Shown here piece by piece: positions 33,066 through 47,987 of a stretch of DNA of 64,000 nt. The stretch is taken from contig NZ_SMNA01000008.1 in assembly GCF_004353825.1 (NCBI RefSeq), forward strand, positions 1 to 64,000, in the 5' to 3' direction. How positions within the stretch are numbered: position 1 is the stretch's first letter; every line of letters begins with the position of its first letter. The position numbers and the translations under genes were made by a program. The notes beneath the pieces were generated by a model. That model worked only from the letters and a program-made list of their open reading frames with translations, ran no database searches and was not told the DNA's origin. This DNA is from Occultella glacieicola (lineage in GTDB: Bacteria; Actinomycetota; Actinomycetes; Actinomycetales; Beutenbergiaceae).

Positions 33066-33485
33066 ATGATCACCATGATCGAGCTGTCCCAGGCCGCCAC
33101 CTCGACGGCCGGTGTGGCGATCCTCGCCGCCGTCACCGTCACCAGCGGTGGTTACTTCCTGGTCAAGGTCGTCAGCGGCACGGTGCCGGCCACGCCCTTC
33201 CAGACCGCGTTCTTCCGCGCCGGGCACGCCCACGCCGGCGTGTTGATCGTCTTCGGTCTTGTCTGCCTCCTGCTGACCGAGGCGACGGCGTTGGCCGGCT
33301 TCTGGCGATGGCTCGCCGGCACCGGGGTACTGGTGGCCGCGATCGCCATGCCCGCCGGCTTCTTCTTCTCCGCCATGGGGAAGGGGCGGGAGCGGCCGAG
33401 CCGCTGGATCGCCATCCTCTACCTCGGCGCGGCGTCCCTGATCGCCGGCCTGGTCACGCTCGGGATCGGCCTCCTCCTGACGTGA
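33066..33485 (+). CDS. Small four-helix membrane protein with HAHAG motif, unknown function
   Basis: 139 residues with four predicted membrane helices (about 14-34, 44-68, 75-100, 112-138). The second helix begins FFRAGHAHAGVL; two histidines spaced by one residue at a membrane face could bind a metal or haem. No family name is assigned. ATG at 33066, with a second ATG three codons later; no clear ribosome binding site. It is divergent from a WHG-type TetR gene and has its own strong promoter with operator. Codon usage matches the genome. Confidence 0.75.
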   Translation: MITMIELSQAATSTAGVAILAAVTVTSGGYFLVKVVSGTVPATPFQTAFFRAGHAHAGVLIVFGLVCLLLTEATALAGFWRWLAGTGVLVAAIAMPAGFFFSAMGKGRERPSRWIAILYLGAASLIAGLVTLGIGLLLT

Positions 33486-33492
33486 GCCGCGT

Positions 33493-33517
33493 GGCGCCGG
33501 ACCCGGTCTCCGGCGCC
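33493..33517. terminator. Bidirectional terminator between the membrane protein and GH43 genes
   Basis: Perfect 9-bp stem GGCGCCGGA / TCCGGCGCC with a seven-base loop, between convergent stops. Confidence 0.75.
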
Positions 33518-33532
33518 CGGCCGCCGGGTCCC

Positions 33533-35833
33533 TCAGCGGTACACGCGGAACCAGTCGAACCGCGCGGTGATGGACGGCTGATCGGCCCGTTCGGCCAGAT
33601 CCTGCGCCACGAGCCCGACCTGGGGCTGCGGGCCCGCCGGAAGCGTGCGCGTGCCATGCCAGACCCAGTGGTCGCCGTCCATGCTGATCGCCGCGCGATA
33701 GAGATGCTCGCCGTTCTCGGCGACGGTGTGCCGCAGGCGCAGCCACATCGTGTCGCGGCTCGGGCCCAGAGCGGCATGACCGTACGCGACCGGCCCGCCC
33801 CTGCTGGTCTCCGTCGCGAACGCGACGAACCGGCGTGACTCCCGGGTCGTGTAGGCCAGCTCGACCCACTCGTCGTCGCCGGCGTAGGCGATCAGCCCGG
33901 CCTGGGGCCAGCCGTACGGGATGGAGTTCCCGAACGGGATGGTCACCCTGGTCTCCGCCGTCCAGGTGCCCTCCGGCAGGTCCCGCAGCAACAGTGACGG
34001 CAAGGTGTCCGCCTGGGGGCGCCGGTCGATCAGGGTCGATCGCTGGACGTCGAACCGGAACTGCCCGTCGCCGACGTTCGCCGCGGGGTCGCGCAGCCAG
34101 GTCCAGTCCGCGCCGGGGCCGTCGGTGAACTCGTCCGAGTGGGCCGGGTCGAGTGCCCCGACCACTGGGTCGGCCGCTTGTTCGGTGACCGGGGTGTACA
34201 GCCGTGCGACCGTGACGTCGTCGAAGTCGGCGTCGCTCCCGTCGGCGTGCAACGTGACCGGCCCCGAGCGTGCGGCGTCCGGCAGCACGACCGAGATCTC
34301 GGCGACCGGGTCGTACTGGCCGGACTCCGAGACGGACGCCCGCAGGTGGCGGCCGGACACGGTCACCTCGATCTCGTGCCAGGTCTCGTAGTCGAAGTTC
34401 GCCGGGAGTGCCGCGGCGGCCACGACGCCGGGGCCGCGCCGGTGCAGGCCGGAGAACACCAGCTGTGACGAGGCGCGGTCGATGGACACGCTCAGGCGAT
34501 GACGGCCGTGCGCCGGGAGGGAGATGCCGGCCTGCCCGCCGTCCCCGGCGGCCAGGCGCACCAGACCGCGGGCCCGAAGGTCGCCCTCGACCGAGACGGT
34601 CGAGACGAGCGGCGCGGCGGCGTCCGTATGGGCATACCCGCCGGTCGCTCCCCAACGGTGCTGCCACCCATCCGCGGCCTCCCAGCCGGCGAGGTCGACC
34701 TCGAAGGCGTCACTGACGTACGCGTCGTTGTTCGGTCCCGCCACCGGTCCCGACGGCATCCCCGCCCCGGCATTGCCGACCGGCCAACCGTCGATCCAGT
34801 CCAGTCTCGTGAGGGCGAGGCCGCGCGCGTTCTCGGTGCCCGCGACATACGGATCGAACCGGTCCGTCGCATGGCTGACGATCCAGTCCTGGCCGGACAG
34901 GTCGGTGGCGATCGCGTTGTGGCCGGTGCTGACGAACTCGTTGCCGTTCGGCGCCAGCACCGGCGTGCCGCCCCCTTGTGGTCCGTCCACGGTGTGCCCG
35001 TCCCGGTCGAGGAAGGGGCCGGTCGGCTCCACCGAGCGGCCCACCATGATTGGGTATCCGGAGGCGGCGCCGGCGCAGCATCCGCCGATCACCGACAGGA
35101 ACAGGTAGTAGTAGCCGTCCCGATGGACGACGTAGGGCGCCTCGTAGCGGTGGGCGTCGGTCAGTTGCACCGGTTCGCCGTCGGCGCGCAGGCCGTCCGC
35201 CGACAGCCGGACGACCCGCACGCCGCCCTGCACCGATCCGTAGTACAGGTAGCGCGTGCCGTCGGGCGTCGTCACCAACTCCGGGTCGATGTTGTTGCGG
35301 ATCTCGGTGACTCCCGGGCGCACCTCCCAGGTCTCGTTGCCGACGACCACCTCACCGGTGTCCGTCCACGGCCCCGCGGGGTGCTCGGCGGTCGCCGCCG
35401 CCACCGTCCGCCACGGGGTGCCGGGCGCCTGGACGACGTAGGAGTAGTAGAGGACGTAGCGCCCGTCCAGATAGGCGATCTCCGGTGCCCAGAACTGGCG
35501 GTTGGCATCGGCAGGTTTGCCGTCGTAGGTCGGGATCGTCTCGGGGGTGAACACCGGGCCCACCCACTCCCAGTTCACCAGGTCGGCGGACCGGCTGATC
35601 ATCATGTTCTGCTTCTGGTCGCCCTCGTAGCGGCGACCGTTGGTCGCGTACGCGTACCAGTAGCCATCGTGTCCGCGGATGATCGTGGGGTCGGCGAAGT
35701 TCCGGGTGAAGCTCGCGGACACCGGGTTCGTGTACGTGGCCATGGTCTCCTGACCTGGTGTGTGGTCGTGACCGGGTGACGGCGTGCCGGCCAGCGTGGT
35801 GAGAGCGATGGCGATACTGAGCAGTCGGCGCAT
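33533..35833 (-). CDS. GH43-family glycosidase (arabinanase/arabinofuranosidase type) with C-terminal beta-sandwich
   Basis: 766 residues. An N-terminal signal peptide (MRRLLSIAIALTTLAG) predicts export. The five-bladed propeller (about 35-340) shows the GH43 triad: D48 in NFADPT (base), D183 in NNIDPEL (pKa modulator) and E231 in YEAPYV (acid). Two beta-sandwich regions follow, about 375-560 and a GH43_C2/DUF1349-like 570-766. An internal ATG at 35743 has a good AGGAG site and would remove the signal peptide. It is the last gene of the ROK-headed operon and probably trims arabinose-containing glycans outside the cell. Linkage specificity is not predictable. Confidence 0.88.
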   Translation of the reverse strand: MRRLLSIAIALTTLAGTPSPGHDHTPGQETMATYTNPVSASFTRNFADPTIIRGHDGYWYAYATNGRRYEGDQKQNMMISRSADLVNWEWVGPVFTPETIPTYDGKPADANRQFWAPEIAYLDGRYVLYYSYVVQAPGTPWRTVAAATAEHPAGPWTDTGEVVVGNETWEVRPGVTEIRNNIDPELVTTPDGTRYLYYGSVQGGVRVVRLSADGLRADGEPVQLTDAHRYEAPYVVHRDGYYYLFLSVIGGCCAGAASGYPIMVGRSVEPTGPFLDRDGHTVDGPQGGGTPVLAPNGNEFVSTGHNAIATDLSGQDWIVSHATDRFDPYVAGTENARGLALTRLDWIDGWPVGNAGAGMPSGPVAGPNNDAYVSDAFEVDLAGWEAADGWQHRWGATGGYAHTDAAAPLVSTVSVEGDLRARGLVRLAAGDGGQAGISLPAHGRHRLSVSIDRASSQLVFSGLHRRGPGVVAAAALPANFDYETWHEIEVTVSGRHLRASVSESGQYDPVAEISVVLPDAARSGPVTLHADGSDADFDDVTVARLYTPVTEQAADPVVGALDPAHSDEFTDGPGADWTWLRDPAANVGDGQFRFDVQRSTLIDRRPQADTLPSLLLRDLPEGTWTAETRVTIPFGNSIPYGWPQAGLIAYAGDDEWVELAYTTRESRRFVAFATETSRGGPVAYGHAALGPSRDTMWLRLRHTVAENGEHLYRAAISMDGDHWVWHGTRTLPAGPQPQVGLVAQDLAERADQPSITARFDWFRVYR

Positions 35834-35875
35834 GACGGATCCCGATCGTTGAGGTTGTCGTGAAGGTCCGAGGGC

Positions 35876-37306
35876 TCACCAGGGGGCCAGCCGGGGATTG
35901 CTCCGGTCCTCGGTCGCGACCAGGACGTCGATGAGCTTGCCCTGCAGCGCGCTGCGGGTCGCTCGTGACGTCGGGTCGTCCCACAGGTTCGTGAGCTCGT
36001 CCGGGTCGGCCTCGAGGTCGTAGAGCTCACCCGAGGATGCGCGGGCGGTCGCCGGCGGGCCGTGGTGGACCACGAGTTTCCACCGGTCGTGGCGCAACAT
36101 GGTCACGTGCACCGGCGGGTCGTAGGGGTGCCCACTGTCGCGGTACTGGCACATCGCCCAGTCGCGCCAGTCCGGGTCACCGCCCCGGATCAGTCGTTCG
36201 AGACCGGCACCCTGGCTCGTCGGCGGGATCGGCAGGCCGGCGGCCTGCACGAACGTCGGTGCGAGATCGACCCACTGCACGAGCTCACTGCGGCGCTCAC
36301 CCGGCGCCGCGACGCCGGGCCACCGGATGATGAGCGGGACGCGCACCGCGCACTCATACATGAACGGTCCCTTGAGCATGAGCTGGTGATCGCCGAGCAT
36401 CTCACCGTGGTCGCTGGTGAAGACGACGATGGTGTTGTCGGCAAGGCCCTCGTCCTCGAGGGCGCCGAGGATGCGGCCGACCTCGTCGTCGACGAGGGAG
36501 ACCATGGCGTAGTAGGCCTTGCGTACGTCCCGCAACGCTTCGTCGGTGTAGGAGGTGTAGCCGGGTGCGTGCCCGCCATAGGACTCCTTCGAGGCCTCGG
36601 CCTGGATCGGCGGCTTGCTGTCGAGCTCACCGTCGCGCGTGACGATCGGTGGCAGCTCGACATCGTCGTAGCGGCGCAGGTACTCCTCGGGCGCGCCGAA
36701 CCCGTGATGCGGGTCGAAGAAGTTCGCGACGAAGAAGAACGGCTTGTCGCGCAGCCGCGACGAGCGCAGGAAGTCGATCGTCTCCTCGCCGATCCAGTGG
36801 CTGTAGTGGGCCTCGGTCGGCATGCTGTCGAACAGCCCGCGCTCGTGCAGGGCAGTCGTGTACAGGTCCGGGTGGTGGTCCTGCAACCACAGGTGGTAGG
36901 CGTTGTCGGGCGACCCGGGGTACGGGTCGTGCGCCCAGCGGAACACCCGGAAGCCGTCGTCGAGTCGCGGCTCGTCGCGCCCATCGGAGCAGGCGCCGAG
37001 GTGTAGCTTGCCGACCAGCCCGCAGTCGTAGCCCGCGTCGGCGAGGCGCCGGGAGAACAGCTCCTCGTGGCCGGCCAGGTCCACGCCGTTCGCATGGAGG
37101 CCGTGCGCGGAGACGTACCGTCCCGTCATCAGGCTTGCGCGCGAGGGTGCGCAGACGGGGTTCTGGACGTAGCAGTTCTCGAAGAGCACGCCCTGCCCGG
37201 CGAGGCGGTCGAGGTTGGGCGTCGACACGGCCGGATTGCCGTACGCGCCGACCATGTCGAACCGCTGCTGGTCGGTGCTGATGAGCAGGATGTTCGGGCG
37301 CGGCAT
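35876..37306 (-). CDS. Sulfatase, type I formylglycine-dependent (A)
   Basis: 476 residues of the alkaline phosphatase/sulfatase fold. The activation signature C52-A-P-S-R-A-S-L-M-T-G is intact, so Cys52 should be converted to formylglycine. N-terminal metal ligands are in ISTDQQ, and TSDHGEMLGDH provides the second metal-binding group. There is no signal peptide, so it acts in the cytoplasm. It starts one base after the GH51 stop, tightly coupled. It likely desulfates oligosaccharides imported by the operon's ABC transporter. The formylglycine-generating enzyme is not in this window. Confidence 0.93.
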   Translation of the reverse strand: MPRPNILLISTDQQRFDMVGAYGNPAVSTPNLDRLAGQGVLFENCYVQNPVCAPSRASLMTGRYVSAHGLHANGVDLAGHEELFSRRLADAGYDCGLVGKLHLGACSDGRDEPRLDDGFRVFRWAHDPYPGSPDNAYHLWLQDHHPDLYTTALHERGLFDSMPTEAHYSHWIGEETIDFLRSSRLRDKPFFFVANFFDPHHGFGAPEEYLRRYDDVELPPIVTRDGELDSKPPIQAEASKESYGGHAPGYTSYTDEALRDVRKAYYAMVSLVDDEVGRILGALEDEGLADNTIVVFTSDHGEMLGDHQLMLKGPFMYECAVRVPLIIRWPGVAAPGERRSELVQWVDLAPTFVQAAGLPIPPTSQGAGLERLIRGGDPDWRDWAMCQYRDSGHPYDPPVHVTMLRHDRWKLVVHHGPPATARASSGELYDLEADPDELTNLWDDPTSRATRSALQGKLIDVLVATEDRSNPRLAPW

Positions 37307-37307
37307 G

Positions 37308-38957
37308 TCAGTGCCCCCGGAGGTCGAACGTGAGCACGCTCACGGAGTGCGGCGCGATCGTCCAGCCGCCGTCCCGCGTCTCGACGGTGCCCAGGTCCCG
37401 GACGCCGATGACGTCCGGCTCCGCGAGGCTGTTCGCCGCCGTGACCGCGGCGTCCGCGCCGACGGCGAGCAGCCTCGCCGAACGGGGTGTGCCATCGGCC
37501 CGGCCGTCGAACACCGGGTGCAGCCGGATGGACTCGTCGCGGTGGCGGTTGATCACGGCGAGGCGCACGGTGCCGTCGTCGGCGCGGGTTGCCGAGACGT
37601 CGATGTACGGCACGGTCATGGTCGCGGACCTGAGCCGGCCGGACGGCTCCCGGTTGTCGCCCAGTGGCACCGACGCGGTGCGCGACGGACCGTCGACCTC
37701 AGCGGGCAGAACGGTGCGGCCGAGATGGCGACCGTACAGCTGCCACACGTGGTAGAGCGCCGAACCGAATGCGCCACCCGGGCGGGCGACGACGAGTCCA
37801 TTGGCATTGACGAGGTTCACCGGGTTCGCCATCGTGACCGGCGTGGCGTGGCCCACCGTGCGGTGGATGGCGTGGAGGACCCCCGCGCTGAACAGGGCAT
37901 CTCCCATGGTGCGTGGGCTCCACCGGTTCACGCGGAGCCCGGAGGGCCAGCCGTCGACGTCGCCGATGTCACGGGCCGCGATCCCACCGTCGTCACCCGC
38001 GAGTGGGGCGGGCCAGTCGGTGGGCTCGAGGTGGCGCATGGTCCACTCGTCGAGGGCGAGCTGTGGCGGGCTGGCCAGACCGCTCTGATGGGCGAGCGTG
38101 GTCACCAGGTGCGAGTAGGTGTTGATCTCCTGCTCGAAGTACAGCGACTGCGCCACGGTGTTCTCGTAGTCGTCCCCCGTCCACAGGTGCGTGGTCGCGC
38201 CGTAGAGGTGCAGCGAGAGCTGGTCGAGGTACTGCCCGGCCTGCTCGAGGAGCGGGCGGGTCCAGGACTCCTGGTCCCAGGGGATCCCGACCCCGACGAG
38301 CCTGAGATCGGGGTCGACGAGCCGCATGAACCGGGCATGCTCGCGAGCGGCGGCGGCGTACTCCTCTGCGGTCCGATGCCCCATCTGCCACGGTCCGTAG
38401 ACCTCGTTGCCGACGCCCCAGTACCGGACCTTCCACGGCTCGTTCCGCCCGTTCCTCCGGCGCATCCGGCTGAGGGCGGTGTCCCTGGTGGCGTTGGTGT
38501 ACTCGACCCATCGCACCGCCTCGTCGACGTCCCGGCAGGAGTGGACCAGGTACGGTTCCGCGCCGACCTCCTCGGTCCAGGCGAGGAACTCGTCGGTACC
38601 GAAGCGGTTGGTCTCGACGTCGCCCCAGGCGAGATCGAGGCGCGTCGGGCGGTCGTCCCGCGGGCCGATCCCGTCCTCCCAACGGTAACCGGACGTGAAG
38701 TTGCCTCCCGGCCAGCGGATCGGGCCGGGAGCGAGGTCTCGGACCAGGTCCGCGACGTCACGGCGGACCCCGTTGAGCAGCCCAGGCTCGCTCACCGACA
38801 GGGGCGAGCCCTCGTCGAACACACCCCCCTCGATGTTGCCGAAGAACGCGGACTCGAGGAAGTGGCCGTAGACATCGTCGCTGATCCTCCCGAGCGGTCG
38901 TGAGGTGTCGACCGTGACTCGGGCGTCGCGGCCGGCCGGGTCGTGGGCATGGGACAT
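37308..38957 (-). CDS. Alpha-L-arabinofuranosidase, GH51
   Basis: 549 residues, retaining exo-arabinofuranosidase. Acid/base E185 in GVGNEVYG and nucleophile E304 in LALDEW, in a TIM barrel (about 70-375), followed by a beta-sandwich. IRWPGGNF and FGTDEFL are family landmarks. No signal peptide: intracellular. The ATG at 38957 with GGAG nine bases upstream is chosen; a GTG at 38990 overlapping the permease stop (GTGA) would add 11 residues and is possible. It removes arabinose from imported oligosaccharides and is the key to the operon's likely substrate. Confidence 0.93.
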   Translation of the reverse strand: MSHAHDPAGRDARVTVDTSRPLGRISDDVYGHFLESAFFGNIEGGVFDEGSPLSVSEPGLLNGVRRDVADLVRDLAPGPIRWPGGNFTSGYRWEDGIGPRDDRPTRLDLAWGDVETNRFGTDEFLAWTEEVGAEPYLVHSCRDVDEAVRWVEYTNATRDTALSRMRRRNGRNEPWKVRYWGVGNEVYGPWQMGHRTAEEYAAAAREHARFMRLVDPDLRLVGVGIPWDQESWTRPLLEQAGQYLDQLSLHLYGATTHLWTGDDYENTVAQSLYFEQEINTYSHLVTTLAHQSGLASPPQLALDEWTMRHLEPTDWPAPLAGDDGGIAARDIGDVDGWPSGLRVNRWSPRTMGDALFSAGVLHAIHRTVGHATPVTMANPVNLVNANGLVVARPGGAFGSALYHVWQLYGRHLGRTVLPAEVDGPSRTASVPLGDNREPSGRLRSATMTVPYIDVSATRADDGTVRLAVINRHRDESIRLHPVFDGRADGTPRSARLLAVGADAAVTAANSLAEPDVIGVRDLGTVETRDGGWTIAPHSVSVLTFDLRGH

Positions 38958-38986
38958 TCCAGAGGGCTCCGTTCCTTGGGTGGCTG

Positions 38987-39889
38987 TCACTGCTTCACTG
39001 CTCCGGCGACGCTGTCGACGAACTTGCGCTGCAACACGACGAACACACCGATCACCGGGACCAGCGAGATGACGGCGGCGGCCGCCATCCCTGGCCAGTC
39101 CTGGCCGTACTCGCCGACGAACACCGTCATGCCGATGGCCAGGGTGCGCAGGTCCGGCTCACTGAGGGTGAACACGAGCGGTAGCAGGTAGGTGTTCCAT
39201 GCGAACAGGAAGGTCAGGATCACGACGGTCGCCGTGATCGGCCAGGCCAGGGGCAGCATCACCTGGAAGAAGATCCGGAACTGACCGGCGCCGTCGAGCC
39301 GGGCGCTCTCCTCGAGTTCCTTGGGTAGCCCCCGGAAGTAGCCGGCGTACAGGAGCGTGGCGGCGATCTGACCGCCGGCGCCCAGGCCCAGGATCACGCC
39401 CGCATGGGTGTTGAGCAGGCCGAGCTGGTCGGTCAGTTGCGTGACCGGAATGATCGTGTAGCCCTCGGGGAGGAAGAACGTCACCAGGAAGACCCCGATG
39501 AGGATCTTCTTGCCGGCGAAGTCGAACCTGCCCAGCACGTATCCGGCGAGGGCGCTGCGGATGACCACCACGAGCACCGTTCCGGCCGTGATCAGCACCG
39601 TGTTCACGAAGTAGGAAGCGAATCCGGCCTCGACCCAGGCCCTCGTGTAGTTCTCCCACACGAACTCGTCAGGAACGAGATCGAAGCCGCTGCCGAAGAT
39701 CTCGGACGGATGCTTGAGGGAGGCCGAGACGAGCCAGAGGAACGGATAGGTCCACAGGAGCGCCGCCGCGGTCAGCGCGACGAGGGCGACGACCCGGCCC
39801 GGGCGCACGTTCCGTCCACGTCGCGGACCGCGGCGTCGGGTCGGCGCGCCCTCCGCCGATTCCGGTCGGATCGCGGTCGCGGCGCTCAT
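38987..39889 (-). CDS. ABC sugar importer permease, UgpE/MalG type
   Basis: 300 residues, six predicted helices after a basic N-terminus. The EAA-type loop is EESARLDGAGQFRIFFQVMLP. Start codon lies in an ATGA overlap with the upstream permease stop. With the partner permease and the lipoprotein it forms a second CUT1-type importer in this window. Again no ATPase gene is present, so a shared ATPase is needed. Confidence 0.94.
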   Translation of the reverse strand: MSAATAIRPESAEGAPTRRRGPRRGRNVRPGRVVALVALTAAALLWTYPFLWLVSASLKHPSEIFGSGFDLVPDEFVWENYTRAWVEAGFASYFVNTVLITAGTVLVVVIRSALAGYVLGRFDFAGKKILIGVFLVTFFLPEGYTIIPVTQLTDQLGLLNTHAGVILGLGAGGQIAATLLYAGYFRGLPKELEESARLDGAGQFRIFFQVMLPLAWPITATVVILTFLFAWNTYLLPLVFTLSEPDLRTLAIGMTVFVGEYGQDWPGMAAAAVISLVPVIGVFVVLQRKFVDSVAGAVKQ

Positions 39890-40860
39890 GAGGCGCCCTT
39901 CGTCTGTCGACGCGCCCACCGCACCCCGACGGCCTGGACGACCGCGAGGACCATGGTCAGGAGTCCGAAGAGCACCGCCGCCGCCGACGCGTAGCCGAGC
40001 TGGGGCACCGTGGCCGCGAAAGCCGTCCGGTAGATGAAGATCTCGATCACCTCGGAGGAGAAGGACGGGCCACCGCCCGTGAGCGTCTGCATCAGGTCGA
40101 AGACGTTGAGTGCACCGACGGTGTCGATGAGGGTGATGATCACCAGGAAGGGCACGAGCAACGGCAGGGTGACGTGCCACAACTCCTTCCGCGCGTTTGC
40201 TCCGTCGAGCATCGCGGCCTCGTGCACGTCGCGAGGAATGGTCTGCAGAGCCGCCAGCCAGTAGATCATCGTGATGCCGAGCCACTTCCAGACCCACACG
40301 GCGATACCCGCGTAGAGCGAGGTGCCGGCGCTGGCGACGAGATTCGTGGGGGAGTCCGTGATCCCCGCCCAGACCAGCGCCAGGCTGATGGGACCGTTGG
40401 CGTCCAGCAGCAGCGTGAAGACGATGCCGATGATCGCACCGGTGGTGACCACCGGCAGGAAGAACAGTGTCCGGAAGAAGCCGGAGAACGGTGTTCTCCT
40501 GCTGTTCAGCCACAACGCGAGCAGCAGCGCCAGGCCCACGCGTGCGGGCACGGCCACCACCAGGAACAGGAGCGACTTCCGGAAGGCGTTCCAGAACAGG
40601 TCATCGGCCAGCAGGCGCCGGAAGTTGTCGAGCCCGGTGAACGTGCCCGTCATGGCGAAACCTGGCCAGTCCAGGAACGCGTACCACCACGACGCCACCA
40701 GTGGGTACACCGTGTACGCCCCGTATCCCAGGAGGGTCGGGAGCAGGAAGAGGTAGATCCACCAGTCCCGGCGCAGGCGTCGCCGCAGACTGAGGCGGTG
40801 GGGCTCCTTCGCCGTCGTCGGGCTGATGGCAGGTGCGGGTGCGGACGTCGTGAGCGTCAT
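39886..40860 (-). CDS. ABC sugar importer permease, UgpA/MalF type
   Basis: 324 residues with six predicted helices. The EAA loop is HEAAMLDGANARKELWHVTLP-like at about residues 215-235, here slightly shifted from consensus. LPTLLGYGAYTVYPLVAS marks the first helix of this family. Only four bases separate it from the lipoprotein gene upstream and it overlaps the second permease by four bases, so all three are cotranscribed. Confidence 0.94.
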   Translation of the reverse strand: MTLTTSAPAPAISPTTAKEPHRLSLRRRLRRDWWIYLFLLPTLLGYGAYTVYPLVASWWYAFLDWPGFAMTGTFTGLDNFRRLLADDLFWNAFRKSLLFLVVAVPARVGLALLLALWLNSRRTPFSGFFRTLFFLPVVTTGAIIGIVFTLLLDANGPISLALVWAGITDSPTNLVASAGTSLYAGIAVWVWKWLGITMIYWLAALQTIPRDVHEAAMLDGANARKELWHVTLPLLVPFLVIITLIDTVGALNVFDLMQTLTGGGPSFSSEVIEIFIYRTAFAATVPQLGYASAAAVLFGLLTMVLAVVQAVGVRWARRQTKGAS

Positions 40861-40864
40861 GGTG

Positions 40865-42379
40865 TCATCGCGCCGCGTAGGCCGCTTGGTCGTAGTCCTG
40901 ACTCGGCTCCCAGTTGGTGAACACCCAATCCTCGATGCTCACCTCGGCACCCTCGCCCGCGACGGCCGCGATGGCCCGGTCACGCTCGGCGCTCATCGCG
41001 TCGTTGAGCCGGGTCAGCTCGCCCCTGATGTCGCTGCTGCTGCCGGTGAGGATCGCCTGTGCGACCTCGCCGAGGTTCGGATGGATGTCCTGGGACTCGG
41101 CGGCCACACGCCAGGTCGACGGGTTGCCGGTCTCGGGCACCGGGCTGATCCGCACGTCGTCGGCCAGGTAGCCGATGTTCCGAGCGTAGGCCGGGTGCAC
41201 GTCGGCCTCGGCGACCACGTCGATGAGCGCGGGCGGTTGGTCCATCGCGCTCGCCAGTTGTGCCTGGAACTCCCGAGAACTCATCTGCAGCAGCAGTTCC
41301 GCAGCGATCTGGGGCTGCTGCGACTCGTTGCTGACCCAGAACACGCCGCCTCCGGGACCACGGTGGACGACGTTGCGGGTCGTCTCCGGGCATGGCAGAC
41401 GCCAGGCGTCGATGCCTCGCTCGACGGCCTCGGGCTCGTCCACCATGAGCCCGCCGATGATCCACGGTCCCCACGGGTAGATGGCCGCTTCGCCGGCCGC
41501 CCAGCGTGCGCGGGCATCTCGGGCACCCATCGACGCCCCCGACGGGTGGACCACGCCGTCCTGCTGGAGGGAGAGCAGGAACTCCAGCGCGTCCACGAAC
41601 GGCTGGGAGTTGAACACGTACGCACCGGTCGTCCAGTCGATGGTGCCGGGCGCGCCGGCACTCTGCGCCAGCCAGTTGACCAGCGCCGTGAGGTACGGGA
41701 CCTCCTTGGTCGGGATCAGGAGCCCGGGAACGCCCGCCCTGTCGGTGATCTGTCGTGCGGTGGCGCGCAGGTCGTCCCAGGTGGCCGGGCTCTGTGCGGG
41801 GTCGATGTCAGCCTGGCTGAGCAGTTCGGTGTTGACCCACGGCGTCGCGTCGTGGAAACGACCGGAGAACAGCGGAACGGAGTAGATCTCCCCGTCGAAC
41901 CGGTGCAGCCCGTCGAACAACTGGTCGACGATCTCGGTGCCGTCGAAGTCGGCATGTCCGCCGATCGGCTGGAACCAGTCCTCGCTGACCAGCGCGGCAG
42001 GTGTCGCATCCAGGCCCGCCAGGGAATGAACGTCCGGCATCTGGTTGCTGCGCCGCGCCACCTGGATCGCCTGCCCCAGATCGGGACCCTCCATCTGCCG
42101 TCGCTCGATCGTGACGCCCGAGTTGGCCGCCATGTACGGCTCGAACAGGCTCGCCTCGAGCATGCTCGTCAGGGGGCGGAACTGGTCCCACCACTGCAGG
42201 ACGCCGTCGTCGGCGCTCGGCCCGTCGGAGGACTGTCCGCCACCCGTGCAGGCGGCGAGCATCGCCCCCAGGCCGCCGGCGCCGACGGTTCCGAGGAATC
42301 CCCGGCGGTTCATGGCGAACGCCGCGCCCGGCAAGTTCCCCCTCCGGGACCCGACACCGTTGTCAGTCGTGCTGTTCAT
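40865..42379 (-). CDS. ABC sugar importer, substrate-binding lipoprotein (family 1)
   Basis: 504 residues. After a polar lead of about 22 residues comes a twin-arginine-like signal NRRGFLG (24-30) and lipobox MLAAC with Cys44. The mature part is a typical extracellular solute-binding protein of the UgpB/MalE class (LQWWDQFRPL near the start, GAAxYPWGPW-like segment mid-protein). ATG at 42379 has a CAGGAGA-type site; the ATG at 42313 directly before the signal is an alternative. Expected ligand is a sulfated or arabinosylated oligosaccharide, by operon context only. Confidence 0.9.
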   Translation of the reverse strand: MNSTTDNGVGSRRGNLPGAAFAMNRRGFLGTVGAGGLGAMLAACTGGGQSSDGPSADDGVLQWWDQFRPLTSMLEASLFEPYMAANSGVTIERRQMEGPDLGQAIQVARRSNQMPDVHSLAGLDATPAALVSEDWFQPIGGHADFDGTEIVDQLFDGLHRFDGEIYSVPLFSGRFHDATPWVNTELLSQADIDPAQSPATWDDLRATARQITDRAGVPGLLIPTKEVPYLTALVNWLAQSAGAPGTIDWTTGAYVFNSQPFVDALEFLLSLQQDGVVHPSGASMGARDARARWAAGEAAIYPWGPWIIGGLMVDEPEAVERGIDAWRLPCPETTRNVVHRGPGGGVFWVSNESQQPQIAAELLLQMSSREFQAQLASAMDQPPALIDVVAEADVHPAYARNIGYLADDVRISPVPETGNPSTWRVAAESQDIHPNLGEVAQAILTGSSSDIRGELTRLNDAMSAERDRAIAAVAGEGAEVSIEDWVFTNWEPSQDYDQAAYAAR

Positions 42380-42401
42380 TCCTGTCTCCTGTCTGAGCGG
42401 A

Positions 42402-43886
42402 TCAGCGCTGCACGTCGTCGAAGGAGCTGAGCGAGACGTCGTAGTCCTTCGCTCCGACGGGGTACATCGACGCCATCCAGTGGTAGAAGTTGTCTCCCCG
42501 CTCGCGCAGCTGGATGTACAGCCGCCGGAGCAGGCTGTTGCGAACCTGTTCGAGTTCGGGATGGGCGTAGCGGTTCTGCAACTCGTCGGGGTCATCGACG
42601 AGGTCGTACAACTCGTTGACCGACTCGGGATTGACGACGATCTTGTACCGGTCGGTCACGAGCATGCGCTGCGGGTAGGGAAAGTGATGCCCGTGGAACT
42701 CGAGCACGAGATCGTCGCGCCACACCGGTTGCTCGCCGCGTACGACGGGCGCCAGGCTGGTGCCATCCACCGCCTGGGAGCTGTCCAGCCCGGCGACGTC
42801 GAGGATCGTCGCCGTCAGGTCGAGCAGGGACGCGAAGTGATCCGCGACCTGCGGCTCGTGGCCACCGGGCAGCCGGACCACGCCGGGGACACGGTAGATG
42901 TCCTCGTAGGCCGCAGGGCCCTTGTCATGAAGCCGGTGCGCACCCGTGAACTCGCCGTGGTCGGCGCTGAAGAACACCGCGGACTCGTCGTAGACCCCGA
43001 GCTCCTTCGCCACCTCGACGATCCGGCCGATCTGTTCGTCGATCATCGTGACGTACCCCCAGTAGGCCGCGATGAGCTTCTTCGACGTCGCCGTCGAGAG
43101 CGTGTCGAAGGTCCAGTGCGCCGAGTAGTTGGCCTGCACCGGCGGCTTGTTCGCGAACGTCTCGGCCACCGACTTCGGCAGCGTGATCGCCTCCGGGTCG
43201 TACATGTCGAAGTAGTGCGAGGGAATGTTGTACGGCAGGTGCGGTCCGAAGAAGTGGGTCGCCAGGAAGAACGGTCGGCCCGCGGTCTCGTGCTCCGCGG
43301 CGTATGAACGCAGCAGGCCGATCGCACGCTCGGCGAGGAAGTACTCGAACGTGGCCTCGAGCGGCTGGTCCAGGCGGGCCGCGAGCAGGTTGCCCGGCGT
43401 GCCGTTGGGGAAGGTGCCGCGGATCTCGTCGGTGAGCGCGTACGGCGGCAGATCGTGCTCGTCCAAGTAGGCGACGTAGTCCGCGTGGTCGACCGGGTTG
43501 TGCCAGCCGTGCATCGGGATTCCGTCGAAGCCGTAGTCGTGCTGGGTGCGGTGCAGCCCCACGTGCCACTTGCCGATGAGGCCGACGTTGTAGTCGGCAT
43601 CGCGCAGCGCCCGGCTGAAGGTGAACTGATCGTCGGCGAGCTCGTCCCGATAGCCCACGTTGCGCTCGTAGTTCGCCAGGAGCTGGTGCCGGAACGGTGC
43701 GGCTCCCGTCAGCAGGCTCGCGCGGGCGGGGGTGCAGATCGCCGTCGGCGTGTAGAACCGTCGGAAGGTCGAGCCCTCGGCGGCGATCGCGTCCAGGACC
43801 GGGGTCGAGACGACGTCGTTGCCGTAGCAACCCAGCGTGTCGATGCGGTGCTGATCGGTGAGGAAGAAGAGGATGTTCGCCGTCAC
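42402..43886 (-). CDS. Sulfatase, type I formylglycine-dependent (B)
   Basis: 494 residues. Activation signature C51-T-P-A-R-A-S-L-L-T-G, the CxPAR variant of the usual CxPSR, generally accepted by formylglycine-generating enzyme. Metal-site segments are FLTDQHRID and FSADHGEFTGAH. No signal peptide, so cytoplasmic like sulfatase A. The two share the fold but differ through most of their length, suggesting different sulfate positions on the same glycan. Its start overlaps the ROK stop (ATGA); 22 bases separate it from the lipoprotein gene. Confidence 0.93.
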   Translation of the reverse strand: MTANILFFLTDQHRIDTLGCYGNDVVSTPVLDAIAAEGSTFRRFYTPTAICTPARASLLTGAAPFRHQLLANYERNVGYRDELADDQFTFSRALRDADYNVGLIGKWHVGLHRTQHDYGFDGIPMHGWHNPVDHADYVAYLDEHDLPPYALTDEIRGTFPNGTPGNLLAARLDQPLEATFEYFLAERAIGLLRSYAAEHETAGRPFFLATHFFGPHLPYNIPSHYFDMYDPEAITLPKSVAETFANKPPVQANYSAHWTFDTLSTATSKKLIAAYWGYVTMIDEQIGRIVEVAKELGVYDESAVFFSADHGEFTGAHRLHDKGPAAYEDIYRVPGVVRLPGGHEPQVADHFASLLDLTATILDVAGLDSSQAVDGTSLAPVVRGEQPVWRDDLVLEFHGHHFPYPQRMLVTDRYKIVVNPESVNELYDLVDDPDELQNRYAHPELEQVRNSLLRRLYIQLRERGDNFYHWMASMYPVGAKDYDVSLSSFDDVQR

Positions 43887-45058
43887 GCGGTCCGCGCCCC
43901 CTCGTGTGAGGCGGTCGCGGAGGTCGGGCGGGGGCCGACCGGGATCGTGCGGTCACGCAGCACGAGTGCGACGCTGCCCAGCGCGCCGTCGAGACTGCCG
44001 AGCTGTGCGACGTGGATCTGCAGGCTCTCGGCGGTGCGCGCGTTCACGTGGCGCACGATCGTCTGCCGCACCGCGCGGACCAGATACTCACCGGCCTCGG
44101 AGAGTGCGCCACCGAGAACGATCGAGGACAGGTCGAGGACCGTGCAGGCGTTCGCCAGCACCAGTCCGATACGCGCGCCGGCGTCCGCGATGACCGCATG
44201 GGCCCGGGACTCGGAACGGTCCAGCGCATCCACCAGATCCTCGACGGACGCCCTTCCCGCTCGGCGAAGGACTGCTCCCATGCCGACGTACGACTCCAGG
44301 CACCCGCGGTTCGAGCACCGGCACACCGGTCCGTTGGGGTCCAGGCACACGTGCCCGAACTCGCCGGCGGACCCGGTGTTGCCCAGGCGCGGTTCGTCAT
44401 CGATGATCAGCAACCCGCCGACGCCCTCGGCAAGGCGCATGTAGATGAGGTCATGCATGTCCTGCCCGGCCCCCCAGGAGAACTCGGCGAGCCCGGCGAG
44501 CCGTGCGTTGTTCTCCGTGCGGATCGGAACCCGGTAACTCTCCGTCAAGCGCTGCTCGAGCGCGGCCAGCACGCCCGCGCGACCCGAGATCGCCCCCGGC
44601 ACACCGACACCGATGGCGCGCAACGGCGACGAGGCGGAGCCCGGGCCGACCAGTTCGCGGACGAAGCCGGTCGCAGTCGCGGAGCGCCGTTCCCACGGCT
44701 CCTCCTTGCCGTGGTCGAGCATGCGCGAACCCAGGACCCGGTGGGTGATGTCGCACGCCACGACGGTCACCCGGGTGTGGCTGAACTCGACTCCGACGAT
44801 CACGCCCGTGGCCGGGTTCAGGGTCAGGTGCTCCGGGGTGCGTCCAACCCGTAGGCCCGCGGTGGGGGGTTGCGCGAGGACCACGAGCCCGGCGCTCCGC
44901 AGGTCCGAGGTGATCTCCGAGATCGTCGCGCGGGATAATCCGGTGCCCTCCGCGATCTGGGCTCGGCTCGCGCCACCACGCACTCGGAGCAGATCGAGCA
45001 CCTGCGCTTCGTGATGCACCCGCCGCGATCGGCGTGACGCTGCTATCGGCTTCGACAC
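43883..45058 (-). CDS. ROK-family transcriptional repressor of the sulfated-glycan operon
   Basis: 391 residues. N-terminal winged helix (about 15-75, with SRAQIAEGTGLSRATISEI), then a ROK domain with the sugar-kinase-like EFGHVCLDPNG histidine site and the zinc-type CRCSNRGCLE cluster. It is the first gene of an eight-gene operon and is coupled to sulfatase B, so it should be autoregulated and induced by a sugar from the pathway. GTG start at 45058, six bases after a CACGCT -10; a perfect palindrome overlaps the -35. No good ribosome binding site, consistent with a leaderless message. Confidence 0.92.
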   Translation of the reverse strand: MSKPIAASRRSRRVHHEAQVLDLLRVRGGASRAQIAEGTGLSRATISEITSDLRSAGLVVLAQPPTAGLRVGRTPEHLTLNPATGVIVGVEFSHTRVTVVACDITHRVLGSRMLDHGKEEPWERRSATATGFVRELVGPGSASSPLRAIGVGVPGAISGRAGVLAALEQRLTESYRVPIRTENNARLAGLAEFSWGAGQDMHDLIYMRLAEGVGGLLIIDDEPRLGNTGSAGEFGHVCLDPNGPVCRCSNRGCLESYVGMGAVLRRAGRASVEDLVDALDRSESRAHAVIADAGARIGLVLANACTVLDLSSIVLGGALSEAGEYLVRAVRQTIVRHVNARTAESLQIHVAQLGSLDGALGSVALVLRDRTIPVGPRPTSATASHEGARTA

Positions 45059-45064
45059 GGGACC

Positions 45065-45107
45065 AGCGTGGAAGGGGCCACCTCATTGCGTCAACAGCTT
45101 GACGCAA
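45065..45107 (-). promoter_or_regulatory. Promoter and ROK operator of the sulfated-glycan operon
   Basis: A perfect 9-bp inverted repeat TTGCGTCAA / TTGACGCAA with a four-base spacer (45086-45107). Its inner half provides a minus-strand -35 TTGACG, followed at 18 bases by CACGCT (45065-45070), which ends six bases before the GTG. Repressor binding would block the -35. This is the best-formed operator in the window. Confidence 0.8.
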
Positions 45108-45266
45108 CTTCTGCATGAACTCGACAAAATTAGACAGAACGACAGAACGCGGCCGTGTGCTCCCTTCGACAGTGCGTGTCATCCCGCACTCGGCGCCGGA
45201 TCTTTGGTTGAGTAGAGCCGACAGGCTTGTCTCGGCACGCCTGACGCGAGAGGACAACCAACAATC

Positions 45267-47987
45267 ATGGCGACCCGTACGACTTCCCCCGGACGGTCCG
45301 CCTCACCAGGACGCAAGAAGGGTTCGCCGAGCACGGCTCGGGCGGGCTCGACCTCGCGTTCCGGCGGGAGTGGGCGTAGTAAGCAGCCGGTGCAGCAGCA
45401 CCAGTCACCGCTGCCCGTGCGCATGGTGCGCGGGATCTGGATGGGGCTCGCCCACCTAGTCGGAGGGACGGCGCGCAGCATCGGATCCGGAGCCCGTAAC
45501 CTCGACCCCGCCCTCCGCCGGGACGGCATCGCCTTCCTGCTGCTCGCGCTCGCCGTGATCGTCGCCGTGCGTGAGTGGTTCGGGCTGTCCGGCGCCGCCG
45601 GGGAGATCGTGCACGCCGCGGCCGCCGGCCTCGTCGGCGTCCTCGCCATCGCGATCCCCGTGATCCTCGTCGGCATCGCGGTACGCCTCATGCGCCACCC
45701 GGAGCGCAAGGAGGTCAACGGCCGCGTGTTCATCGGCCTCAGTGCGATCACCGTCGCGGTCTGCGGCCTGGTCCATGTGGCCTCCGACCTGCCCGCGCCG
45801 CCGGCCTGGCAGGACGTCTTCGCCGCGGGAGGGCTGATCGGCTTCGTCGCCGCGAACCCGCTCTCGGCTGCCCTCACCGTCTGGGTGACCGTGCCGTTGC
45901 TCGTACTGTTGGCATTCTTCGGCCTCCTGGTCGTGACGGCCACACCGGTCGCCGCCATCCCGCGCCGGATCCGCCAGGGTGTGGACTGGGTCACCGGTGC
46001 GGACATCGACGCGCGGGCCGGCGACGACGCACCGGACGGCGACCACGACCCGGACGCGACCGAGAAGCTGGAGGGCCGCCCCCGCCGTCGGAGGTCGAAG
46101 GCGAAGGAGACGACCACCGCCGCTGCCGAGCCCGGCGCCTACACCGGCGACGAGGCGTTCGCCCACCCGCACGAGACCGAACCCGGCGACGCGCCGGAAC
46201 CGGCGCCGCGTGGCCGCAAACCGCGGGCGGGCAAACCGGCACCGGAACCGGCCGCCGTCGGGCCCGTCGACGAACCGGCCGAGGACCCGGGTGCGCCGGA
46301 GGACCTGGTCGCCCCGCCCACTCAGGCCCTGCCGGCCCGCGCCGAGCAGCTCGTCCTGGACCCGGGCCTGACCTACACGCTGCCCGGCGACGAGGCGCTC
46401 GTCCAGGGTGCGCCGCACAAGCTGCGTTCGCCCGCGAACGACCGCGTCGTCGAGGCGCTGACCACCGTGCTCACCGACTTCGGCGTCGACGCCCAGGTGA
46501 CCGGCTTCACCCGCGGTCCGACCGTCACCCGCTACGAGGTGGAGCTCGGTTCCGGGGTCAAGGTGGAGCGGGTCACCGCACTCAGCAAGAACATCGCCTA
46601 CGCCGTCGCGAGCGCGGACGTGCGGATCCTCTCGCCGATCCCGGGCAAGAAGGCCATCGGCATCGAGATCCCGAACGCCGACCGCGAGACCGTGGTCCTC
46701 GGTGACGTGCTCCGGTCCCCGGTGGCCCGCCGCAACGAGCACCCGATGGTGATCGGCGTCGGCAAGGACGTCGAGGGCGGCTACGTGGTCGCGAACCTCG
46801 CGAAGATGCCGCACATCCTGGTCGCGGGTGCCACCGGCGCCGGCAAGTCCTCGTTCGTGAACTCGATGATCACGTCGATCATGATGCGGGCCACCCCCGA
46901 GGAGGTGCGGATGGTGCTGGTCGACCCGAAGCGGGTCGAGCTGACCATCTACGAGGGCATCCCGCACCTGATCACCCCGATCATCACCAACCCGAAGAAG
47001 GCCGCCGAGGCCCTGGAGTGGGTGGTCCGGGAGATGGACGCCCGCTACGACGACCTGGCCGCGTTCGGGTACAAGCACATCGACGACTTCAACGCCGGGG
47101 TCCGCAACGGCAAGGTCAAGCCGCTGCCGGGTAGCGAACGCAAGATCGCGCCGTACCCGTACCTGCTGGTGGTGGTCGACGAGCTCGCCGACCTCATGAT
47201 GGTGGCCCCGCGGGACGTGGAGGCCTCGATCCAGCGGATCACCCAGCTCGCCCGCGCCGCCGGCATCCACCTGGTGCTGGCCACCCAGCGCCCGAGCGTG
47301 GACGTGGTCACGGGGCTGATCAAGGCGAACGTGCCGTCCCGGCTCGCGTTCGCGACCTCCTCGCTCGCGGACTCCCGGGTGGTCCTGGACCAGCCGGGCG
47401 CGGAGAAGCTGATCGGTCAGGGCGACGCCCTGTTCCTGCCGATGGGTGCCTCCAAGCCGATGCGCGTGCAGGGTGCCTGGGTCAGCGAGACCGAGGTGCA
47501 CGCCGTCGTCGAACACGTGAAGGGCCAACTCAAGCCCACCTACCGCGAGGACATCGTGGTGTCCGCGGCGAAGAAGCAGGTGGACGAGGACATCGGCGAC
47601 GATCTCGACCTGCTGCTGCAGGCGGCCGAGCTGGTGGTCACCACCCAGTTCGGGTCGACCTCGATGCTGCAGCGCAAGCTGCGCGTCGGGTTCGCCAAGG
47701 CCGGCCGGCTGATGGACCTGCTGGAGTCCCGCGAGATCGTCGGGCCATCGGAGGGCTCCAAGGCCCGCGACGTGCTGGTCCAGCCCGACGACCTGCCCGC
47801 CACGCTCGCGCTCCTGCGCGGCGAGAGCCCGGCCCCCGCCGCCGAGGATGACGAGCCGGTCTACGACGCCGGTCCCGAGGACCTCGTGGCCGCCGACCTC
47901 GACGACCGCGAGGAGGCCGTGGACTACTACGACTCCGACGACGACGACGACTCCGAGGACGCCTGGGACCTCACCAACCGGACCTGA
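45267..47987 (+). CDS. ftsK: DNA translocase FtsK/SpoIIIE
   Basis: Septal ATPase that pumps DNA during chromosome segregation. 906 residues: a basic N-terminus, four predicted membrane helices (about 85-230), an acidic/Pro-rich linker (235-365), the RecA-like motor with Walker A GATGAGKSS (521-529) and Walker B LLVVVDELADLM, and a gamma domain (about 775-840, TTQFGSTSMLQRKLRVGFAK) that reads orientation sequences. An acidic tail ends the protein. The start has a GAGAGGA-type site. It is divergent from the ROK operon, 208 bases apart. Confidence 0.96.
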   Translation: MATRTTSPGRSASPGRKKGSPSTARAGSTSRSGGSGRSKQPVQQHQSPLPVRMVRGIWMGLAHLVGGTARSIGSGARNLDPALRRDGIAFLLLALAVIVAVREWFGLSGAAGEIVHAAAAGLVGVLAIAIPVILVGIAVRLMRHPERKEVNGRVFIGLSAITVAVCGLVHVASDLPAPPAWQDVFAAGGLIGFVAANPLSAALTVWVTVPLLVLLAFFGLLVVTATPVAAIPRRIRQGVDWVTGADIDARAGDDAPDGDHDPDATEKLEGRPRRRRSKAKETTTAAAEPGAYTGDEAFAHPHETEPGDAPEPAPRGRKPRAGKPAPEPAAVGPVDEPAEDPGAPEDLVAPPTQALPARAEQLVLDPGLTYTLPGDEALVQGAPHKLRSPANDRVVEALTTVLTDFGVDAQVTGFTRGPTVTRYEVELGSGVKVERVTALSKNIAYAVASADVRILSPIPGKKAIGIEIPNADRETVVLGDVLRSPVARRNEHPMVIGVGKDVEGGYVVANLAKMPHILVAGATGAGKSSFVNSMITSIMMRATPEEVRMVLVDPKRVELTIYEGIPHLITPIITNPKKAAEALEWVVREMDARYDDLAAFGYKHIDDFNAGVRNGKVKPLPGSERKIAPYPYLLVVVDELADLMMVAPRDVEASIQRITQLARAAGIHLVLATQRPSVDVVTGLIKANVPSRLAFATSSLADSRVVLDQPGAEKLIGQGDALFLPMGASKPMRVQGAWVSETEVHAVVEHVKGQLKPTYREDIVVSAAKKQVDEDIGDDLDLLLQAAELVVTTQFGSTSMLQRKLRVGFAKAGRLMDLLESREIVGPSEGSKARDVLVQPDDLPATLALLRGESPAPAAEDDEPVYDAGPEDLVAADLDDREEAVDYYDSDDDDDSEDAWDLTNRT

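Follow-up and report, generated by a model that had tools for sequence, protein, structure and literature searches.

A ROK–sulfatase–furanosidase operon in Occultella glacieicola and its likely sulfated furanose substrate

Introduction

The window considered here is a stretch of 64,000 nucleotides from the actinobacterium Occultella glacieicola (contig NZ_SMNA01000008.1, positions 1 to 64,000), and its subject is an eight-gene operon with a ROK-family repressor, two sulfatases, a sugar importer and two glycoside hydrolases of families GH51 and GH43. We focus on the glycan that the operon may serve. Comparison with related loci points to a ROK-repressed operon for a sulfated furanose glycan, most likely one with 5-linked alpha-L-arabinofuranose (Araf), as in arabinan or arabinogalactan, and possibly one with beta-D-galactofuranose (Galf); we give this reading a probability of about 0.55.

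Organization of the operon

The eight genes lie on the minus strand in the order ROK repressor, sulfatase B (SulB), lipoprotein, two permeases, GH51, sulfatase A (SulA) and GH43, an arrangement put forward in an earlier reading of the letters (the original prediction) and confirmed here by the coordinates of the open reading frames and by profile matches. The ROK-family repressor (43883..45058) has a winged helix–turn–helix (HTH) region (PF00480, 1e-40; MarR_2, 1.1e-6). It is followed by SulB (42402..43886; PF00884, 8e-47), a Cys-type sulfatase with the motif C51-T-P-A-R that is predicted to be cytoplasmic, and by the substrate-binding lipoprotein (SBP) of an ATP-binding cassette (ABC) importer (40865..42379; PF13416, 3e-19). 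Both sugar permeases match PF00528; the first (39886..40860) is nearest to the UgpA/GlcT models and the second (38987..39889) to the GlcU/UgpE models, in each case below cut-off. The remaining genes encode a GH51 alpha-L-arabinofuranosidase-like enzyme without a signal (37308..38990; PF06964, 3e-11; GH51 structures in the PDB, 2e-83), SulA (35876..37306; PF00884, 1e-53), which is of Cys type with the motif C52-A-P-S-R and is also predicted to be cytoplasmic, and a secreted-type GH43 with a concanavalin-like C-terminal domain (33533..35833; PF04616, 8e-49; GH43_C2, 1e-6). Calculated from the coordinates, the gaps from ROK to GH43 are -4, 22, 4, -4, -4, 1 and 42 bases. No ATPase gene for the importer is found among the eight; a profile search places UgpC-type ATPases above the model cut-off at two other places in the genome.

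The N-termini, read by eye, agree with the earlier claim that only GH43 and the lipoprotein are exported, while SulA, SulB and GH51 are not. The SBP starts with a twin-arginine/lipobox-like sequence (NRRGFLG...LAAC). The GH43 of the window and six relatives have signal-like N-termini with divergent letters ahead of a common domain start, and this supports secretion of GH43. The N-termini of SulA, SulB and GH51, and of most of the GH2 enzymes that accompany SulA elsewhere, lie at or near the catalytic domain.

The control region

A perfect 9-bp inverted repeat with a 4-bp spacer (TTGCGTCAA-N4-TTGACGCAA; 45086..45107, either strand) lies upstream of the ROK gene and overlaps a TTGACG -35-like hexamer, just as had been predicted. 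At up to three mismatches it is the sole match in the window, with none in 100 shuffles, and the sole match in the 5.34-Mb genome; a role as the operator of a wider regulon was rejected on the lack of a second genomic copy at this threshold.

Conservation was followed by a footprint of four promoters, those of the window, Occultella aeris, Microbacterium sp. AK031 and Promicromonospora panici. Both arms of the repeat are identical in the two Occultella promoters only. The right arm, TTGACG(C/T)AATG, includes the -35-like TTGACG and is conserved in each of the four promoters, as is an element further upstream on the minus strand (45109..45139; TTCTGTC-N3-TTTTGTCGAG-N6-CAGAA), in which TTC-GTC is followed by TT-TGTCGAG and then, after 6–7 bases, by CAGAA. 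Since this element is kept in four of four promoters and both repeat arms only in Occultella, it is the better candidate for a general ROK operator.

The promoter-like region (45056..45094, minus strand) consists of TTGACG (45094-45089), 18 nt, CACGCT (45070-45065) and, 6 nt on, a GTG start. A CA..CT box with GTG 6 nt later is kept in all four promoters, those of the window and of loci L033, L036 and L054 (spacer 17–18), which suggests that the ROK mRNA may be leaderless, with its GTG start at 45058. A sigma-70 consensus scan of 33300-45300 called no promoter, and a terminator scan gave three terminator-like sites against 2.2 expected, none of them at the operon end. Gene spacing and upstream-region conservation suggest that the eight genes are co-transcribed from one promoter.

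Sulfatase active sites and maturation

SulA and SulB are formylglycine (type I, S1) sulfatases, with the C-x-P-x-R motif, the Cys nucleophile, the metal Asp/His residues and Lys. In SulA, residues D12, C52, R56, K100, H200, D299, H300 and K312 are invariant across 48 aligned rows; in SulB, C51, R55, K106, H108, D309, H310 and K322 are invariant across 30. AlphaFold2 models reach a pLDDT of 91 for SulA and 88 for SulB. The maturation enzyme FGE (PF03781) is found at three places in the genome (best E 1.5e-79), including C21:75034-75945. FGE homologues adjoin the homologous operon in L036 and SulB in L085, and BLAST places one near SulB in L148.

SulA and its furanosidase partners

The evidence that carries the furanoside reading is the company that SulA keeps. 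A pattern-based scan of one genome per species across 84,980 species, from which records of the organism's own or very near genomes were perhaps omitted, yielded 61 SulA loci. Partners were counted within 8 kb of SulA at 44 of 57 distinct loci, those whose flanks reach 7.9 kb or more in both directions. The other 13, which include the short copy of the window itself, fall below this length and were set aside. A GH51, a GH2 of group III or a GH43 lies within 8 kb in 33 of the 44 (by family, GH51 in 20, GH2 in 20 and GH43 in 6), and an FGE in one. The same applies to one of 20 control sulfatases (7 of this genome and 13 of family members), giving a Fisher p of 1.7e-7 with loci treated as unrelated. 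In the control set, the C21 stretch of this genome was exchanged for a G010 stretch and a C7 sulfatase match was excluded. Four further C21 sulfatases have no furanosidase within 8 kb, bringing the controls to 1/24, although for one of them a C21 GH2 is found some 8.4 kb away, just beyond the limit. A GH43 of another subfamily might escape the profiles, in SulA loci and controls alike.

One frequent partner is a GH2 cluster (c4) with members in 23 loci, at least two being second copies from the same genome. Of the 46 SulA genes counted, from named loci and from the window, 18 are immediately followed on the 3′ side by a c4 gene that has the same orientation and lies no more than 300 bases away; the next commonest cluster reaches 5. 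For the L036 member, the nearest PDB structures are 7XYR (GH2_19; 1.6e-103) and 7SF2 (8.9e-67), then the beta-D-galactofuranosidases 9J6N/9J6M (GH2_18; ~1e-63), with the remaining GH2 structures following at 1e-28. These nearest sequences, for the L036 member, and the lack of the hexuronidase motif N-x-K from the expected loop point to GH2 group III for the partner: N-x-K is absent from 19 of 23 rows, and in the other four it falls, judged by position, outside the expected region (in the front half or, for L072 as well, at 13 residues from the C-terminus). A beta-glucuronidase reading was rejected on this motif. The Asn-Glu pair is intact in 18 full-length rows. In the excerpted literature, the GH2 group concerned is furanose-specific and acts on both Araf and Galf (PMC12243196). 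Because furanosidases accompany SulA in 33/44 loci against 1/20 controls, and because the GH2 partner is nearest to Araf/Galf subfamilies, SulA probably serves sulfated furanosides.

There is no GH2 gene in the operon itself. In the SulA tree, read without branch supports, several of the loci that surround the window and O. aeris carry GH51 together with GH2, so that the GH2 gene has probably been lost here. The GH2 partners of L058 and L061 differ from the other members in having twin-arginine-like leaders, and the GH2 step may therefore be extracellular there.

Other features of SulA neighbourhoods deserve mention. In L079 (11495-19067; Jiangella asiatica), two proteins of about 1100 aa come directly after SulA; the one that was searched contains a laminin-G domain and matches no catalytic family. 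LacI-type regulators of 561–623 aa stand beside the SulA transporters at L181:3747-5618, L182:3742-5613 and L180:4029-5714; in L180 and L181 an extra N-terminal HTH region (HTH_28/29/32) is in the same frame, and the L182 protein is of equal length. Within O. glacieicola, C21:72377-142789 (L102-L105) holds four sulfatase-domain genes, an FGE and, adjacent to a GH2 group III gene, a LacI-like gene. One of the sulfatases is a further SulA-like protein (51%) accompanied by permeases of its own, and the GH2 (C21:107967-109760) shares 64% identity with the GH2 linked to SulA in Nonomuraea (L052) and 40% with that of L036. The region looks like a sulfated-glycan island.

Genomic contexts of SulB

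The contexts of SulB are more varied. Its 30 aligned members comprise 15 at GH51 loci, seven beside an SsuABC-like transporter, two with both, five with an anaerobic sulfatase maturase (anSME) and one other; the SsuABC-like calls come from scanning three transporter proteins in L145 only and from BLAST to L145 at the other loci. The window's SulB clade (support 0.99) is GH51-linked in eight of eight members. Sister to it is a group of 10 (support 1.0), Ssu-linked in every member except L039, plus L153 (0.63), and the union of clade and sister has a support of 0.99.

It follows from the Ssu transporters and maturases beside its relatives that SulB may serve another ester. On such an account SulA would be the glycan sulfatase, SulB would act on some other small sulfate ester (a sulfated monosaccharide, or one used in sulfur scavenging) and the operon would join carbon and sulfur supply. 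The next SulB clades speak for this, and against a single shared glycan, since relatives at 62–68% identity stand behind ROK with SsuABC-type transporters (9/30) and others at 50–53% near anaerobic maturases (5/30); moreover, no SulB was found at L054 within the 18 kb examined. AtsR2 of Bifidobacterium breve is reportedly a ROK protein with this gene layout. The B. breve cluster for N-acetylglucosamine-6-sulfate (GlcNAc-6-sulfate), which is repressed by AtsR2, a NagR paralog, counts on the same side, as far as the available text of its report goes (PMC9599254). Against a separate task for SulB is the unbroken GH51 linkage of the window's own clade, and in L141 and L142 Ssu-type genes stand beside GH51, so that the two contexts overlap. 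We consider separate tasks unlikely, although the SulB family may have a broader role (small sulfated sugars or other esters), and SulA can be assigned to the glycan with more certainty than SulB. An operon of ROK, an SsuABC-like transporter and a SulB-type sulfatase recurs in actinobacteria (L141-L148, L085), with an FGE-like gene also present in L148 and L085.

Which furanose?

If SulA and SulB act together on one sulfated furanose glycan, the glycosidases bear on which sugar it contains. The operon enzyme belongs to GH51 by its domain match and by its catalytic residues: E196 and E315 do not vary over 20 aligned rows, which represent about 16 distinct genes, that of the window among them. 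GH43 likewise has its domain match and D48, D183 and E231 invariant in seven rows, the window's included, and is nearest to endo-1,5-arabinanases (the AbnA model and arabinanase structures in the PDB). An ordinary arabinose locus seems to be present elsewhere in the genome, since an L-arabinose isomerase gene (araA, C4:18306) has two GH51 matches within 8 kb. These score 167 and 153 bits against the GH51 domain, compared with 46.7 bits for the operon enzyme, which, given this much weaker match, looks like a specialised paralogue.

The arabinose substrate of the original prediction is thus borne out in part: comparative linkage strengthens the case for a furanoside, while Araf and beta-D-Galf are indistinguishable, because both are substrates of the GH2 group and Galf can also be cleaved by a GH51 arabinofuranosidase. 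In Streptomyces, three of four candidates, GH51 among them, had both Araf- and Galf-cleaving activity, according to the part of the report at hand (PMC4560423). A beta-D-Galf sugar, in a sulfated galactofuranan or as a Galf side chain, would agree with this dual activity, with the galactofuranosidases that come next after 7XYR and 7SF2 among the structures nearest to the GH2 partner, and with the Galf that Cladophora polysaccharides are reported to carry; against it, GH43 is nearest to endo-1,5-arabinanases and GH51 to ArfA, both below cut-offs, and a GH43 of this type lies within 8 kb in only 6 of the 44 SulA loci, which limits the GH43 argument. We regard Galf as the improbable choice of the two.

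A proposed pathway

The step order for a sulfated furanose glycan can be set out as follows. GH43 would cut the glycan polymer outside the cell, and the SBP and two permeases, sharing an ATPase encoded elsewhere, would import short, still-sulfated oligosaccharides. SulA and SulB, matured to formylglycine by the genome's FGE, would then desulfate these in the cytosol, after which GH51 would free the furanose; in relatives, a GH2 furanosidase would join or replace GH51. Repression by ROK would be lifted by the freed or the sulfated sugar. Outside trimming, import and cytoplasmic desulfation had been proposed before and fit the gene anatomy. Gene order, intact catalytic residues, the eye-read export pattern and the statistical linkage of SulA to furanosidases come directly from the sequence; the substrate, the order of the steps, the ROK effector and co-transcription are inferred.

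Besides the SulB contexts, several points weigh against this pathway. The operon GH51 misses the cut-off of the ArfA equivalog NF051901 (9e-83; 278.9 against 625 bits), as GH43 does that of the AbnA equivalog NF053747 (3e-38; 132 against 480 bits). The furanosidase profiles were built from the same SulA neighbourhoods in which partners were counted, and several loci come from congeners or from one genome. Eleven of the 44 loci have no such furanosidase (L047, L049, L060, L069, L078, L079 and L180-L184), and in L180-L184 SulA stands with a transporter and a LacI-type gene and no glycosidase was seen among the neighbours viewed, a subset of which was Pfam-scanned. Finally, phosphonate monoester hydrolases (PMHs) and arylsulfatases are among the structural neighbours of SulA, so that the fold does not determine which type of ester is cleaved.

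The best structural matches of SulA are SpAS2, SpAS1, PMHs, S1_25, S1_46 and PsS1_NC (Z 41–45), and those of SulB are PsS1_NC, then SpAS1 and others; the top labelled Foldseek matches are S1_46 for SulA (28%) and PsS1_NC for SulB (26–27%). A substrate call from fold was rejected, as the good matches include carbohydrate sulfatases, choline sulfatases and PMHs alike. PMHs also use formylglycine, and the FGE linkage in L036 and L085 therefore does not separate a sulfatase from a PMH. It is highly improbable that SulA and SulB instead hydrolyse phosphodiesters or phosphonates in a phosphorylated furanose glycan: PMH structures are among the best SulA matches (Z 40–43) and both proteins match the PehA model, at scores far under its cut-off, but carbohydrate and aryl sulfatases match about equally well.

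Distribution and likely sources of the glycan

The operon of O. aeris matches that of the window gene for gene at 86–94% identity. In two congeners, G001 and G003, SulA matches reach at best 37% and 35%, none of them close, and SulB has no match at 1e-100; the operon is thus not universal in the genus Occultella (Ruaniaceae). Within the order, a SulB match at 1e-100 or better occurs in 38 of 396 genomes, those of the window and O. aeris included. Named SulA hosts at 58% identity or above are mostly Kribbella, Nonomuraea, Jiangella, Phytoactinopolyspora, Pseudonocardia, Microlunatus and Actinopolymorpha, and further hosts at this level are metagenome-assembled genomes of Chloroflexi, Caldilineaceae, a Propionibacteriaceae and Candidatus Ruania gallistercoris. 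Most of the named genera are of soil, plant or saline-soil type. Sciscionella sediminilitoris, also a SulA host, may be coastal, judging by its name, and SulA at 49–52% is found in Rhodobacteraceae and Paracoccaceae records (L075-L077). A pairing of sulfatases with an arabinofuranosidase, earlier held to be uncommon, recurs in several actinobacterial genera, with SulA, SulB or both beside GH51.

The marine or algal diet that had been suggested is not indicated by these hosts; such a specialisation, conceivable for this organism, is unsupported by the named hosts of close SulA. Its premise, that sulfated arabinans are algal products, is weak as it mixes ring forms: in the text available, those of Codium, Caulerpa and Cladophora, the main algal ones, are mainly pyranosic (PMC7550628) and therefore unsuited to furanosidases. 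In Chaetomorpha linum, 5-linked alpha-Araf that bears sulfate has been reported (cited in PMC9962809), and the arabinogalactan proteins (AGPs) of Codium have sulfated arabinose side chains, wine AGP being sulfated too (excerpt of PMC8406133), so algae are a possible source and not the sole one. Galf side chains are described for Cladophora, in small amount for freshwater C. surera (PMC5694217, in part), and water hyacinth is reported to make sulfated polysaccharides containing galactose, glucose and arabinose (PMC3269731). With a sulfatase group tied to furanosidases by genome context, glycans with sulfated arabinose or Galf may be a food outside the sea as well.

Significance and comparison with known systems

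A broader proposal is that SulA founds a group of furanoside-specific (Araf/Galf) sulfatases in terrestrial actinobacteria, in which GH51, GH2 group III and GH43 are swapped around a fixed desulfation step. We advance it tentatively, at somewhat less than even odds. A search of open-access papers found no description of a sulfatase group specific for sulfated furanosides. If true, it would imply that soil or plant litter contains a pool of sulfated furanose glycans. For soil, sulfate esters and sulfonates are described as the major forms of organic sulfur (PMC4267179). Few sulfatases have a characterised substrate, as an excerpted source notes (PMC5066984), and a group tied by genome context to furanosidases offers one testable substrate class. 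Such a group would be the actinobacterial counterpart of the sulfated-AGP loci of Bacteroides.

Three known systems and one enzyme group resemble the operon in part. ArfA-type arabinan systems share ABC import, a cytosolic GH51 and a secreted GH43 arabinanase; they differ in that the window's GH51 falls below the ArfA cut-off and that stronger genomic GH51 matches lie near araA on C4. To our knowledge, no sulfatases occur in ArfA-type systems with an intracellular GH51 and ABC import. Nor do we know of a furanosidase in the GlcNAc-6-sulfate cluster of B. breve. That cluster resembles the operon as a sulfated-sugar cluster of an actinobacterium under a NagR-paralog repressor, and its anSME maturase has a parallel in the maturases near SulB relatives at 50–53%, but it handles an amino sugar and depends on anSME for maturation, in the portion of the report available (PMC9599254). 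GH2 group III furanosidases (GH2_18/GH2_19) are partners of SulA within 8 kb in 20/44 loci, whereas none is found in this operon.

The likeness in substrate is greatest with Bacteroides plebeius, in which PUL5, PUL13 and BpS1_8 act on sulfated AGPs of seaweed and wine by combining sulfatases with arabinose-side enzymes and post-import desulfation. As excerpted, the B. plebeius system is Gram-negative, with SusC/D, a periplasmic sulfatase and desulfation before the galactanase (PMC8406133), whereas this operon has ABC import, predicted cytoplasmic sulfatases and GH51, and ROK control. The operon is a variant among known sulfated-glycan utilisation loci, with a pairing that recurs in actinobacteria.

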